DNA of 64,000 nucleotides from NCBI GenBank assembly GCA_029245785.1, contig JAQWOR010000021.1, forward strand, positions 86,932-150,931, in the 5' to 3' direction. The DNA is from Polaribacter sp. Lineage in GTDB: Bacteria > Bacteroidota > Bacteroidia > Flavobacteriales > Flavobacteriaceae. Below are positions 22,561-30,058 of the stretch, in pieces; within the stretch, counting starts at the first letter, position 1; the number at the start of each line of letters is the position of its first letter. Under the pieces are notes generated by a model that did no database searches, was not told the origin of the DNA, and worked only from the letters and a program-made list of their open reading frames with translations. A program made the position numbers and the translations under genes.

Positions 22561-23826
22561 TTATATCAAATATTGAAATAAATCAGGCTTATCATTCAAA
22601 TAATCTCCATAGAAATTCTTCGCTTTCATTCTTCCTATTAAAGGTTGTAAATCGCATTTATTTTTCAATTCAATCCCAACAATGGCAGGGCCATTTTCTC
22701 GGTTGTGTTTTTTAGAATATTCAAAATGTGTGATGTCATCTTGTGGGCCTAAAATATCAACTACAAATTCTTTTAATGCGCCTGCTCTTTGAGGAAAACG
22801 AATGATAAAATAATGTTTCAAGCCATTGTACAACAAGGCTCTTTCTTTAATTTCTGCTGTTCGGGTAATATCGTTATTACTTCCGCTCACAATACATACT
22901 ACATTTTTTCCCTTAATTTTATCGGCATAAAATTCTAATGCAGACAAAGTCAATGCACCTGCTGGCTCTACAACAATGGCATCTTTATTGTACAAGTCTA
23001 AAATGGTTTGACATACTTTTCCTTCCGGAACCGCAATCATATCATCTAGATTTTCTTTACAAATTTGAAAGGTTAAATCTCCAACTTGTTGTACTGCTGC
23101 GCCATCCACAAATTTTTCGATGCTTTCTAAACGAACATTTTTATTTTCTTTGATGGCCGTTTTCATGGATGGAGCGCCTGCTGGCTCCACGCCTATAATT
23201 TTAGTATTTGGTGACAGCATTTTAAACACGCTCGATAATCCAGCTGCTAACCCACCGCCGCCTACCGGAACAAACACGTAATCTATTGTTGAAGTTGCTT
23301 GCTCTATAATTTCTAAACCAATTGTGGCTTGCCCTTCAATAATTTTTTCATCATCAAAAGGAGGGATACTTATTTTTTGTAAACGGTCGCATTCTAATTT
23401 TGCGGCTGCTTGCGCATCGTCAAAAGTATCGCCAATTAGCTTAATATCAACAAATTCTCCACCAAACATTTCTACCTGCATTAGTTTTTGCTTAGGTGTT
23501 GGAGTTGGCATAAAAATAGTACCGTGTATCTTTAATTTTTGACAGGCAAAAGCAACTCCTTGGGCGTGGTTTCCAGCACTTGCGCAAACAACTCCCTTTT
23601 GTAACGCATCATTTGTTAAGGAGCTAATTTTGTTATAAGCGCCCCGTATTTTATAAGACCTTACTTGTTGCAGATCTTCTCTTTTCAACAAAATATTTGC
23701 TCCAAATTCTCTAGAATAATTGATGTTTTCCATCAACGGAGTTACAGCGGCCACTTCTTTTAATACGGTTACAGCTTTCTTTATGTCTTCTATTTTCGGA
23801 TAATATGTTATTGTTTTGACACTCAT
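22561..23826 (-). CDS. ilvA: threonine ammonia-lyase (threonine dehydratase)
   Basis: [47 protein letters not shown]-terminal ACT-like region. Confidence 0.92.
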
Positions 23827-24020: not shown

Positions 24021-25487
24021 TTAGAGTTGTTTCATTGCTGTCATAGAAGCTCTTAAAATAGCACCTACTTTTTCTACGGGATGGTTTCTAATCTTTTGGT
24101 TTACTGCAATCAATTGTTGGTTATCAACACCATTTGTACTTGCATATGATTTTCCGATAATATCTGTGCTTACCGTCTTCATAAAATCGGTTAATAAAGG
24201 TTTGCACGCGTGGTCAAATAAATAACATCCATATTCTGCTGTGTCAGAAATCACTCTATTCATTTCAAATAATTTTTTACGTGCTATGGTATTTGCAATC
24301 AATGGTGTTTCGTGCAATGATTCATAATAGGCAGACGCTGCGATAATTCCAGAAGCTGTCATTGTCTCAAATGCTAATTCTACACCAGCTCTCACAAAAG
24401 CAACTAATAACGTTCCGTGATCAAAAAATTCTTGTTCCGTAATTTCTTGTTCTGTTATAGTTGTTTTTTCAAAGGCTGTTTCTCCTGTAGCAGCTCTCCA
24501 TTTTAATAAATTTACATCATCATTCGCCCAATCTTCCATCATGGTTTTTGAAAAATGTCCAGACATGATATCGTCCATGTGTTTTTGAAATAAGGGACGC
24601 ATGATTTCTTTTAATTCTTCTGAAATTTCAAAGGCTTTTAGTTTTGCAGGGTTTGACAAACGGTCCATCATGTTGGTAATTCCTCCATGTTTTAATGCTT
24701 CTGTAATGGTTTCCCATCCATACTGGATTAGTTTAGCTGCATACCCCGCTTCGATACCTTCTGCTACCATTTTGTCAAAAGATAAGATGGCTCCAGTTTG
24801 TAAAACTCCACATAAAATGGTTTGTTCTCCCATCAAATCAGATTTTACTTCGGCTACAAAAGAAGATTGTAATACTCCGGCTCTGTGTCCGCCTGTTCCA
24901 ACTGCATACGCTTTCGCTTGTGCCAATCCTTTTGCTTGCGGGTCATTTTCTGGATGTACTGCAATTAATGTTGGCACACCAAACCCTCTTTTATATTCTT
25001 CTCTTACTTCAGATCCTGGGCATTTTGGTGCCACCATAATTACGGTTAAATCTTTACGAATCTCCATGCCTTCCTCAACGATATTAAATCCATGAGAATA
25101 CGACAAGGTAGCGCCTTGTTTCATCAATGGCATTACCGCTGTTACCACATGGGTATGTTGTTTGTCTGGTGTTAAATTCAATACCAAATCTGCTGTTGGA
25201 ATTAATTCTTCATAAGTTCCTACAACGAATCCGTTTTCGGTAGCGTTTTTGTAAGATTGACGCTTTTCTGAAATTGCTTGTGCTCTTAGCGTGTATGAAA
25301 TATCCAATCCAGAATCTCTCATGTTTAATCCCTGATTTAATCCTTGGGCTCCACATCCTACAATGACAATTTTTTGCCCTTTTAAGGCATCAATACCTCC
25401 TTCAAATTCTGAAGATTCCATGAATCTACATTTTCCTAATTCTGTCAATTGATCTCTTAGAGATAGTGTGTTAAAATAATTTTTCAT
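24021..25487 (-). CDS. ilvC: ketol-acid reductoisomerase
   Basis: [50 protein letters not shown]; start placed at [14 protein letters not shown]. Confidence 0.93.
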
Positions 25488-25503: not shown

Positions 25504-26028
25504 TTAAAATGCTGCAAGCATTTCTGATATATTCATTGGTTCTTTTGTTACTGATATTCTTCCTGACCTAACAAACTGCATTAATTTATACGGCTTTAAA
25601 TCTTTGTATAATTGTTCTGTTTCATGTCTACGCCCTGTCTTTTCTATCACAAAAAACTCACGAGAAACCGTGACAATGTTGGCGTGACTTTCTTTGATGA
25701 TGTTTTGGACTTGACGTTGCTCAAACAAAGAATCTGAAGCTACTTTATACAGTGCCGTTTCTTGATAAATGGTCTCTTCATCTGTATGGTAATACGCTCT
25801 GATTACTTCAATTTGTTTTTCCAATTGTTTGGCCACTTTTTCTGCCTGAAATTCTGTCATTTCAGAAACAATTACAAAACGATTTACATGTTCAATTTCT
25901 GATTGAGACGTTGTTAAACTTTCAATATTTAAATGTCTTTTTAAAAATATTGATGACACTCTATTCAATAAACCGATATTGTTTTCTGTATATATTGAGA
26001 TGGTGTATAATTTCATTTCTGTGTTCAT
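25504..26028 (-). CDS. ilvN: acetolactate synthase small subunit
   Basis: [34 protein letters not shown] domain; between ilvB and ilvC. Confidence 0.9.
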
Positions 26029-26131: not shown

Positions 26132-27865
26132 TTAACTTAATCTCATATCTGAAACCGAGGCTCCTGTTGGAATCATTGGAAACACATTGTTTTCTTTTTC
26201 TACGCATACTTCTAAAAAATACGAATCTTTACAAGCAATCATTGTCTCAATTGCTTTGCTCAAATCTTCTCTTTTTGTAACGCGATTTGCTTCTATATGA
26301 TATCCTTTTGCAATGGTTACAAAATCTGGATTTACCATTTCTGTAGAGGCGTATCTTTTGTCAAAAAACAATTGTTGCCATTGACGAACCATCCCCAAAA
26401 ACTCATTGTTTAACACCACAATTTTTACGGCTGCTTTGGTTTGAAAAATAGTCCCCAATTCTTGAATGGTCATCTGGTAACCGCCATCTCCAATAATGGC
26501 AATCACTTCTCTTTCTGGCGCTCCCATTTTTGCGCCAATGGCCGCTGGTAAGGCAAAACCCATTGTTCCTAATCCTCCAGAAGTAATATTGCTTTTTGTT
26601 TGCTTAAACTCTGCATATCTACAGGCAAACATTTGATGTTGTCCAACATCAGAAACAATGACTGCTTTTCCTTTTGTTACCGCATTAATCTCTTTAATTA
26701 CTTCTCCCATAGTAATTCCTTCTTTTGTGGGATACAGCTCATCTTTGATCACTTTATCAAATTCTATCGCGTCCAATTTTTTGAATTCTTGCATCCAATG
26801 TTCATGTGAATTTGAATTTACAAAAGGTAAAATTTGCGCCAATGTTTCTTTCACATCGCCTAAAACGGCAACGTCTGCTTTTACATTTTTACCTATTTCT
26901 GCAGGGTCAATATCAAAATGAATTACTTTTGCTTGTTTTGCATAGGTGGCTAAGTTTCCTGTAACACGATCATCAAATCGCATTCCGATGGCAATTAACA
27001 CATCGCATTCATTTGTCAATATATTAGGAGCATAATTTCCGTGCATTCCAACCATTCCTGCATTTAAAGGATGTTTAGATGCTAAGGCAGACAGTCCTAA
27101 AATAGTGCAAGTAGATGGAATTTCTGTTTTTTCTATAAAGGTTTTAAATTCTAATTCTGCCTTTCCTAAAATAACTCCTTGACCAAAAATGATCATTGGT
27201 TTTTTTGCGACATTGATCAATTTTGCAGCCTCTTTTAATTGATTTTCATCAACCTCTGGAACTGCTTTATAACTTCGAATGGACGTACATTTTTCATACT
27301 CAAAATCAAAGGTATCAAACTGTGCGTTTTTTGTAATATCAATCAATACAGGCCCCGGACGTCCAGAACGTGCTATATAAAATGCCTTTGCCATAATTTC
27401 AGGAATTTCTGAGGCTTCTGTTATTTGATAATTCCATTTTGTAACAGGTGTAGAAATACCAACAATGTCTGTTTCTTGAAATGCATCAGAACCTAATAAG
27501 TGTTTCCCAACCTGACCTGTAATACACACCATGGGTGTAGAATCTATCTGTGCGTCTGCAATTCCAGTTACTAAATTAGTAGCTCCTGGACCAGAGGTTG
27601 CCATGGCAACACCAACTTTTCCTGTAACTCTTGCAAAACCTTGAGCAGCATGTGTTGCTCCTTGCTCATGGCGCGTTAACACATGCTGTAATTGATCTTG
27701 ATATTTGTACAATTCATCATAAATTGGCATAATTGCACCTCCTGGGTATCCATACAATAAATCAACTCCTTCTGCCAACAAGCATTTAATGACTGCTTCA
27801 GCACCTGAAATATGTTCTGTTTGTTTTTCAGTTATTTGATTGGCTGTTTGTGTTTTCGCTTTCAT
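26132..27865 (-). CDS. ilvB: acetolactate synthase large subunit
   Basis: GYPGGAIMPIYDELY, HEQGATHAAQGFARVTGKVGVAMATSGPGATNLVTGIADA, TPP motif GDGGYQMTIQELGTI. Confidence 0.95.
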   Translation of the reverse strand: MKAKTQTANQITEKQTEHISGAEAVIKCLLAEGVDLLYGYPGGAIMPIYDELYKYQDQLQHVLTRHEQGATHAAQGFARVTGKVGVAMATSGPGATNLVTGIADAQIDSTPMVCITGQVGKHLLGSDAFQETDIVGISTPVTKWNYQITEASEIPEIMAKAFYIARSGRPGPVLIDITKNAQFDTFDFEYEKCTSIRSYKAVPEVDENQLKEAAKLINVAKKPMIIFGQGVILGKAELEFKTFIEKTEIPSTCTILGLSALASKHPLNAGMVGMHGNYAPNILTNECDVLIAIGMRFDDRVTGNLATYAKQAKVIHFDIDPAEIGKNVKADVAVLGDVKETLAQILPFVNSNSHEHWMQEFKKLDAIEFDKVIKDELYPTKEGITMGEVIKEINAVTKGKAVIVSDVGQHQMFACRYAEFKQTKSNITSGGLGTMGFALPAAIGAKMGAPEREVIAIIGDGGYQMTIQELGTIFQTKAAVKIVVLNNEFLGMVRQWQQLFFDKRYASTEMVNPDFVTIAKGYHIEANRVTKREDLSKAIETMIACKDSYFLEVCVEKENNVFPMIPTGASVSDMRLS

Positions 27866-27878
27866 TTTTATGTATTTA

Positions 27879-29558
27879 TTACGCGTCAGTTATGCATCCT
27901 TTTGACGCTGATGCAACCGTTTTTGCATATTTGTATAATATTCCTTTTTTGTGCTTCAATGCCGGAGCAACCCATTTCAATTTTCTTTCAGCAATTTCTG
28001 TATCAGAAAGCAAGACATTAATGGTATTGTCTTTTGCACTAATTCTAATGTTATCGCCTGTTTCTAAGATTGCTATTGTCCCTCCAGATTGTGCTTCTGG
28101 TGTAATATGTCCCACTACAAAACCGTGTGTTCCTCCAGAAAAACGTCCATCAGTTATCAATGCAACAGATTTTCCTAATCCTGCACCCATAATCAATGAA
28201 GTTGGCTTTAACATTTCTGGCATTCCTGGGCCTCCTTTTGGGCCTACATAACGAATTACAACTACATCTCCTCTACTAACTTCTCCGTTAGAAATTCCTG
28301 TATTTGCGGCTTGTTCTCCATCATAAACCACTGCTTTTCCTTCAAAAAGCAATCCTTCATTTCCACTAATTTTTGCCACTGCTCCTTCAGTAGCGAGGTT
28401 CCCGTATATGATTTGGATATTTCCTGAAGACTTTAATGCCTTATCCTTTGGATAAATAACATCTTGATCATCTTCAAAAGAAAGCGGTGCTACCTCAGCC
28501 AAATTTTCTGCCAATGTTTTTCCTGTAACGGTCATGCAATCGCCATGTAAATACCCATTATCTAATAGGTATTTCATTACGGCTGGAGTTCCTCCAACGC
28601 CATGAACATCTTCCATTAAGTATTTTCCGCTAGGTTTTAAATCAGCAATTAAAGGTGTTCTATCACTTACTTTTTGAAAGTCTTCTAAACTAAAATTAAT
28701 ATCAGCAGCATGTGCAATTGCTAAAAAGTGCAATACTGCATTTGTTGATCCTCCTAAAGCATTGACCAATGCAATGGCATTTTCTATTGATTTTTTAGAA
28801 ATAATATCTAAGGGTTTTAGATCTAATTCCATTAAGTTTTTAAGTGATATGGCTGTTCGTTCACTTTCTGATAATTTATTAGGGTTTTCAGCAGGAATTG
28901 AAGAGTTATATGGTAATGAAAATCCCATTGCTTCAATAGCAGATGCCATTGTATTTGCTGTATACATTCCGCCACAAGCTCCAGCTCCTGGAATTGCTCT
29001 TTTAATGATTTCTCTATATTCTACTTCATCAATTTCTCCGGCAACTTTTTGCCCTAAGGCTTCAAAAGCAGAAACAATGTTTAATTTTTTCCCTTTGTAA
29101 TTTCCAGAAGCAATTGTTCCTCCGTACATCATAATTGATGGACGGTTTAAACGCAACATGGCAATGACAGCTCCAGGCATGTTTTTATCACAACCAACTA
29201 CAGAGATTAATCCGTCATAACTCTGGGCATTCATTACCGTTTCTATAGAGTCGGCTATAATATCTCTAGAAGCTAACGAATAATTCATCCCAGAAGTTCC
29301 CATAGATATTCCATCACTAACTCCAATTGTATTAAAACCTAAGCCAACCAAACCAACAATATTACATTCGGTTTTTACTTCGGCAGCTAAGTTGTTTAAG
29401 TGCATATTACACGGGTTTCCATCGTAACCTGTACTAGCAATTCCTACTTGCCCTTTACTCATATCATCATCGGTCAAACCAACTGCATACAACATGGCCT
29501 GCGACGCTGGCTGAGATTGATCTTGGGTTAATCTACTACTGTGTTTATTTAATTTCAT
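27879..29558 (-). CDS. ilvD: dihydroxy-acid dehydratase
   Basis: [58 protein letters not shown]. Confidence 0.95.
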
Positions 29559-29763: not shown

Positions 29764-29800
29764 GCAAAAAAGAGCCTGTATCAATTTGATACAGGCTCTT
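29764..29800 (-). terminator. intrinsic terminator 2 of the ilv leader (attenuator)
   Basis: Minus strand AAGAGCCTGTATCAA-a-TTGATACAGGCTCTT followed by TTTTGCG; 15-bp perfect stem. Confidence 0.9.
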
Positions 29801-29825
29801 GCTTTATAGGCAATGATTAGCTGTA

Positions 29826-29882
29826 TCAACTCGATGATGAGCTAATAATGACTACAATAATTATGTTTTTTAAATAATTCAT
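29826..29882 (-). CDS. ilv leader peptide 2, MNYLKNIIIVVIISSSSS
   Basis: 18-codon ORF with IIIVVII run, upstream of terminator 2 and ilvD. Confidence 0.7.
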   Translation of the reverse strand: MNYLKNIIIVVIISSSSS

Positions 29883-29893
29883 TTTTTGTCCAT

Positions 29894-29924
29894 AAAAAAA
29901 GCCTTCCAAATTTGGAAGGCTTTT
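29894..29924 (-). terminator. intrinsic terminator 1 of the ilv leader (attenuator)
   Basis: Perfect palindrome GCCTTCCAAATTTGGAAGGC flanked by AAAA and TTTTTTT on the minus strand. Confidence 0.9.
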
Positions 29925-29955
29925 AGTTATATTTTAATTTTAATATACGCTTCCT

Positions 29956-30018
29956 TTATCCTTGCTTTTGAATAGCAATGACATGAATAGAAATGATATT
30001 AATTAATTGTGTGTTCAT
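29956..30018 (-). CDS. ilv leader peptide 1, MNTQLINIISIHVIAIQKQG
   Basis: 20-codon ORF with 6 Ile, 1 Leu and 1 Val, upstream of terminator 1. Confidence 0.7.
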   Translation of the reverse strand: MNTQLINIISIHVIAIQKQG

Positions 30019-30028
30019 AATGATGAAA

Positions 30029-30058
30029 CAAATATCTATTATTTTTTTGAGTTGGCAA
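30029..30058 (-). promoter_or_regulatory. candidate flavobacterial promoter of the ilv operon
   Basis: Minus strand TTG-N19-GATATTTG (7/8 match to TAnnTTTG), about 10 nt before the leader peptide 1 ATG. Confidence 0.5.

Follow-up and report, generated by a model that had tools for sequence, protein, structure and literature searches.

A probable pair of isoleucine/valine attenuators in series before the ilv operon of a Polaribacter

What does the DNA between ssb and ilvD do for the branched-chain amino-acid operon that follows it? The question is raised by a contig of Polaribacter sp. (assembly GCA_029245785.1, contig JAQWOR010000021.1), of which we analysed positions 86,932 to 150,931 of the forward strand; this whole 64-kb stretch is called the window in what follows, and all coordinates are positions within it. 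A first-pass annotation, made from the letters of the window, had proposed an attenuator upstream of ilvD. From the comparisons presented here, that element appears to be the second member of a double attenuator, conserved and arranged in series, and this is the main addition to the first reading. Very likely, two ribosome-mediated Ile/Val transcription attenuators stand one after the other in the leader of the ilvDBNCA operon.

The operon, its leader and the two elements

Downstream of the leaders, on the minus strand, the gene order is ilvD-ilvB-ilvN-ilvC-ilvA. According to NCBIfam, these genes encode dihydroxy-acid dehydratase (ilvD, 27879-29558; TIGR00110, 711 bits), the large subunit of acetolactate synthase (ilvB, 26132-27865; TIGR00118) and its small subunit (ilvN/ilvH, 25504-26028; TIGR00119), ketol-acid reductoisomerase (ilvC, 24021-25487; NF003557, 926 bits) and threonine ammonia-lyase (ilvA, 22561-23826; NF006390, 631 bits), that is, the pathway of the very amino acids encoded by the leader codons. 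On the other side ssb has a terminator of its own directly 3' of the gene (AAAAAGCACCC...GGGTGCTTTTT, 30120-30089, minus strand), so that the ilv leader is isolated as a separate transcript. A putative promoter of the Bacteroidota type, comprising TTG (30058-30056), 20 nt and ATATTTG (30035-30029), would span 30029-30058 of the minus strand; it resembles the consensus TTTG / TAnnTTTG given for this phylum (PMC7366714), and among 73 relatives, most have a TTAGGAT/TTTG ... ATATTTG pair directly 5' of leader 1. The stretch from the ssb terminator to leader 1 also contains an inverted repeat, long and imperfect (AGTTGGCAAG...CTTGCCAACT, 30086-30050, minus strand), which overlaps with the putative promoter at its -33 region. 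This repeat could serve as an operator or belong to the ssb 3' end; a genome search with an approximate pattern, which missed the window's own copy too, gave no second copy.

In the minus-strand sequence 30100-29500, the element first reported, attenuator 2, is found with every part that had been described at the coordinates given for it. Its leader peptide (MNYLKNIIIVVIISSSSS, 29826-29882, minus strand) lies where the first-pass annotation had placed an Ile/Val leader, and holds the uninterrupted IIIVVII run. The terminator said to come just after it is present: segments 3 and 4 (AAGAGCCTGTATCAA-A-TTGATACAGGCTCTT, 29770-29800, minus strand) are followed by a T-run (T6), and the hairpin alone reaches -21.4 kcal/mol, with a z-score of -7.3 against dinucleotide shuffles, the whole element having a z-score of -4.9 against shuffles. 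Segment 2 (TTGATACAG, 29821-29829, minus strand), the 5' arm of the antiterminator, has the TGA stop within it; a 9-nt complementarity links it to segment 3 (CTGTATCAA, 29794-29786, minus strand) in the 5' arm of the terminator, a match which had been announced as perfect and is exact. Terminator and antiterminator of the original description stand, but three features had been missed. The first is a protector hairpin 1:2, the 5' arm of which is segment 1 (TATTAGCTC, 29839-29847, minus strand) while its 3' arm (GAGTTGATA, 29824-29832, minus strand) shares bases with the leader stop and with segment 2. The second is an inner hairpin, TTGC-N7-GCAA (29799-29813, minus strand), which sits inside the antiterminator loop and forms together with 2:3 in folds; related leaders show, by eye, other complementary pairs at this site, for example ATTG/CAAT in L111. 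The third is a complete attenuator upstream, spanning 30018-29897.

This attenuator 1 is unrelated in sequence to attenuator 2. Its leader peptide (MNTQLINIISIHVIAIQKQG, 29956-30018, minus strand) holds six Ile, one Val and one Leu, and homologous leaders of the MKKQILNIISIIVIVIITT type occur in most relatives. Its segment 2 (GGAAG, 29950-29954, minus strand) begins 1 nt past the stop of leader 1 and pairs with CTTCC in the 5' arm of terminator 1 (AAAAGCCTTCCAAATTTGGAAGGCTTTT and a T-run, 29897-29924, minus strand), itself directly 5' of leader 2. Only 14 nt separate terminator 1 from the ATG of leader 2, too short a stretch for a promoter, so that attenuator 2 would be met only by polymerases that have gone past attenuator 1. 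We most likely have to do with two attenuators in series on one transcript. That a single attenuator was duplicated into two was considered and rejected, as segment 2, terminator and leader all differ (GGAAG/CTTCC against TGATACAG/CTGTATC).

Could such elements be fortuitous? The window was scanned for an Ile/Val-rich leader starting with ATG, accompanied by a T-tailed terminator with a 5' arm complementary to the leader-stop region. Exactly two were found in 64 kb, attenuators 1 and 2, and the same combination did not occur once when the whole window was shuffled 60 times with its dinucleotides preserved. Ile and Val together make up 15% of the residues of the operon proteins, so that a seven-residue run at a given site has a p of about 2e-6. 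It may be argued that the two terminators, both of them very strong, are constitutive, marking the end of the ssb transcript or acting as fixed polarity elements, and that the Ile-rich frames are incidental in an AT-rich genome; such DNA does yield them by chance, with about 3.7 Ile/Val-rich short ORFs per shuffled window. Yet ssb is already provided with a terminator, no shuffle associates a leader with terminator and complementarity, and the leaders, their codon-level structure and the alternative pairings are conserved. The orientation of the elements points the same way: at least one lies within 1600 nt 5' of ilvD in 38 of 80 named loci, as against 2 of 80 in antisense and 0 of 400 shuffles. 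Constitutive termination appears to us very improbable, and we keep attenuation as the working interpretation.

Alternative pairings and the position of the ribosome

Both elements display what is expected of a leader-peptide attenuator: an Ile/Val-rich leader made of regulatory codons, an intrinsic terminator 3:4 before the first gene, an exclusive antiterminator 2:3 and an exclusive protector 1:2, with a segment 2 that overlaps the leader stop or directly follows it. Read from this anatomy, from its conservation and from the alternative pairings, the leaders would be translated and the position of the ribosome would set the fate of the transcript. Were isoleucine and valine plentiful, the ribosome arriving at the stop would cover segment 2, 3:4 would pair and RNA polymerase would stop, leaving premature 3' ends. 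Were charged tRNA-Ile or tRNA-Val scarce, the ribosome would stall in the Ile/Val run and break 1:2, 2:3 would form first and transcription would continue. If translation failed altogether, 1:2 would form and the terminator would win. Expression of the operon under such regulation by isoleucine and valine would need passage of both attenuators, the effects of which may multiply.

Simulated ribosome positions are in keeping with this scheme. In a fold test of 169 candidates (some of which are antisense false positives), where the transcript ended at segment 3 and the ribosome footprint was masked, the antiterminator formed in 117 when the ribosome sat in the Ile/Val run, in 16 when it sat on the stop and in 52 when there was none; the thr attenuator of Escherichia coli, taken as a control, behaved in the same way. 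The antiterminator of attenuator 1 appears in folds with the ribosome placed on the Ile codons. Minimum-energy folding of the full-length transcript gives the terminator for almost all ribosome states, with E. coli thr as well, which implies that antitermination must be kinetic, 2:3 being formed before segment 4 is made.

The first-pass annotation had made conservation of the leader frame and stems of attenuator 2 in close relatives a condition of its reading, and the proposed logic is conserved in the homologues of this element. In the class-2 alignment A1, made of 34 distinct homologous sequences, pairing holds in 100% of cells for the antiterminator 2:3 (GATACAG with CTGTATC), in 99.7% for the protector 1:2 (TATTAGCTC with GAGTTGATA) and in 98.2% for the terminator 3:4; compensatory changes affect 5 of the 13 terminator pairs, and two-sided changes are seen there in 27 cells against 8.4 in shuffles. 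Controls in which the partner was slid by 1-3 columns gave 15-58% paired, a comparison that is not decisive alone since the structures were derived from the same sequences. Shuffling of the 3' letters inside class 2 was uninformative for 2:3 and 1:2, because their columns hardly vary. The 2:3 helix changes solely by wobble substitutions on one side, so that its evidence of covariation comes from a test across families, which took one locus for each of 24 terminator clusters (a few of them spurious) across Bacteroidota: the 2:3 duplex of a locus with its own arms averaged -8.06 kcal/mol, against -5.41 (sd 0.45) with permuted arms, and none of 20,000 permutations did as well. Homologues, permutations and thr-like folding lend strong support to the ribosome-mediated logic that had been put forward for this element.

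What is conserved in class 2 lies mainly in the final codons of the leader, in its stop, in segment 2 and in the arms of the terminator, and the codons near the stop, AGC TCA CCA CCG AGT TGA TAC AG, are almost invariant, third positions included. This distribution bears on control independent of translation, by a T-box, a riboswitch or a protein-bound leader, for which the leader ORFs would be secondary. Terminator/antiterminator pairs, common as they are to all types of attenuator, would suit such control; the centring of conservation on the end of the leader frame does not, and nothing in the window attains the gathering score of any Rfam family, the sub-threshold matches being scattered (the best of leader type on the strand are Phe_leader with 31.8 and Thr_leader with 28.0 bits, for a cut-off of 55). 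We may conclude that the element falls outside the catalogued RNA families (T-box, riboswitch, Thr_leader, Phe_leader or Bacteroid-trp), and to translation-independent control we grant even less credence than to constitutive terminators.

Attenuation by a translating ribosome is further in line with the choice of codons. When native leaders were compared with 150 synonymous recodings that preserve the peptide, using the stability of the leader/segment-2 fold, the native codons stabilised the 1:2 fold in 127 of 128 leaders, with a mean z of -2.2 in class 1, -3.2 in class 2 and -1.9 in the others. Folds of the full leader pair the leader-1 codons AAT ATC ATT TCT with GGAAGTGATATT after the stop, and this codon-level pairing offers an explanation of conserved motifs of the leader-1 peptide such as NIIS. 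RNAalifold returned no consensus structure for the class-1 alignment A2, in which spacer lengths differ, and class 1 was for this reason judged locus by locus and with the recoding test.

Distribution among relatives

Searches with IlvD, followed by extraction of the upstream stretches, yielded about 190 distinct upstream regions, the group treated in the search as a single genus including Polaribacter and Tenacibaculum records. Attenuator 1 is present in most members of this group. In many relatives it stands alone, most of the Polaribacter-type ones being devoid of attenuator 2, which is therefore dispensable. Attenuator 2, the leaders of which end in IISSPPS and the terminators of which are built on CTGTATC/GATACAG, stands together with attenuator 1 in the closest relatives of the window.

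This pattern leads us to ask whether attenuator 2 is decaying in the genome of the window, leaving attenuator 1 to regulate as it would in the relatives that possess no other. Along with the absence of attenuator 2 from most Polaribacter-type relatives, some drift of the copy itself speaks for decay: leader 2 reads SSSSS where relatives have SSPPS, the conserved Pro-Pro codons being lost, and its 1:2 hairpin is weaker than most, with a z of -1.1 against synonymous recodings, which is no significant gain. The 9-nt 2:3 pairing, the 14-bp terminator, the open leader frame and the Ile/Val run are nevertheless intact, the closest relative (G033/L002, with an IlvD 96% identical) has a complete attenuator 2 with a compensated terminator, and the class-2 covariance model detects the copy of the window at 90 bits. 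Decay is unlikely on this evidence, and we retain two working attenuators as the preferred reading. The same model, run on 396 genomes of the class, gave scores mostly of 36-43 bits, a tally that we do not use as a prevalence because several inspected matches came without a leader ORF.

Two elements in tandem were found at 25 loci. Tenacibaculum and related loci have the same series of attenuators 1 and 2 ahead of ilvE-ilvD. Among the 25 are also tandem pairs of different sequence, in Lutibacter (L037), Aquimarina (L061), Myroides (L091) and a cyclobacterium (L057). The two classes are alike in codon content, with means of 7.1 Ile and 2.4 Val in class 1, and of 6.7 Ile and 2.3 Val in class 2. 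We are somewhat inclined to understand this as the maintenance, across Bacteroidota, of two unrelated attenuators for the same amino acids in series, as a compound switch. Readthrough would then be the product of two probabilities, so that repression would be tighter, and the response to Ile/Val starvation steeper, than with any single attenuator.

Several loci show features of their own. The ilvE-ilvD pair lies downstream of tandem attenuators in L026-L030, L040, L111, L112, L117 and L122. The clade of the window has no ilvE at the leader locus, an ilvE_II homologue being located on another contig (G000:C68); the gene may have been lost, or relocated, beneath a retained double leader. In L232 and L233, two loci of another lineage that come in addition to the 25, two different Ile/Val leaders in tandem (for example MKKQNLYIIVIIQTL and MRKKTIVSVIIIIHSTE) precede an ilvE-like gene; it may be that independent tandem pairs are widespread in Bacteroidota. 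The two attenuators of Aquimarina L061 resemble each other, one being based on CCCTTT and the other on CCCTTC; in contrast to the unrelated pair of the window, they give the impression of a true duplication. The leaders of L022, L183 and L185 are poorer in Ile codons (for example MKTRQIHIISVIIGKNP) and their complementarity is shifted; these attenuators are perhaps changing or losing function. Finally, L047, L063 and L099, labelled Ignavibacteriae, Candidatus Planktophila and Planctomyces, have an ilvD 63-68% identical to the query, as do other Bacteroidota loci, and are probably mislabelled bins.

Relation to known attenuation systems

A comparative study of 2004 reportedly predicted some leader-peptide attenuators in Bacteroidetes. 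The enterobacterial attenuators (ilvGMEDA, thr, leu, his, trp) share with the present ones a leader of regulatory codons, the 1:2 / 2:3 / 3:4 logic and a position before the biosynthetic operon of the amino acid sensed. They differ in that no relation in primary sequence is seen, the leader stop lies here inside segment 2, there is no convincing Shine-Dalgarno sequence and two attenuators are in series. Bacteroidota mostly do without Shine-Dalgarno initiation. Since attenuation requires coupling of transcription with translation, these leaders would be a natural reporter of coupling in the phylum. The comparative evidence, which is strong, would extend classical ribosome-mediated attenuation to the branched-chain amino-acid operons of Bacteroidota.

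A survey of 2010 knew of no leader-peptide systems beyond Proteobacteria and Actinobacteria (PMC2965389). The first-pass remark that few attenuators are documented in Bacteroidota was a fair one, though the 2021 transcriptome of Flavobacterium psychrophilum, a member of the same family, had 'strong clues' for leader-peptide attenuation before amino-acid operons (PMC9723704); its main text describes structured 5' regions, with no ilv, tandem elements or analysis of alternative pairings. In Corynebacterium, a leader ORF and alternative hairpins likewise come before the branched-chain genes ilvBNC, in another phylum and with a single attenuator described (PMC10272879, PMC11857589). In the literature searched we came across no case of two leader-peptide attenuators in tandem that share their codons and stand before a biosynthetic operon, though one may be described elsewhere.

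A further parallel is the mgtCBR leader of Salmonella, with tandem attenuators presented as a singular case (PMC3641672). There, as here, two leader ORFs and two attenuators occupy a single mRNA leader, the second attenuator of the window apparently having no promoter of its own, to judge from the lack of room. The mgtCBR attenuators sense different signals, ATP and proline, before a transporter and virulence operon, whereas the two described here are both Ile/Val-rich, nearly identical in codon content, and precede a biosynthetic operon. Serial attenuators for the same signal would make it possible to test in what way a simple RNA switch can be sharpened by bacteria.
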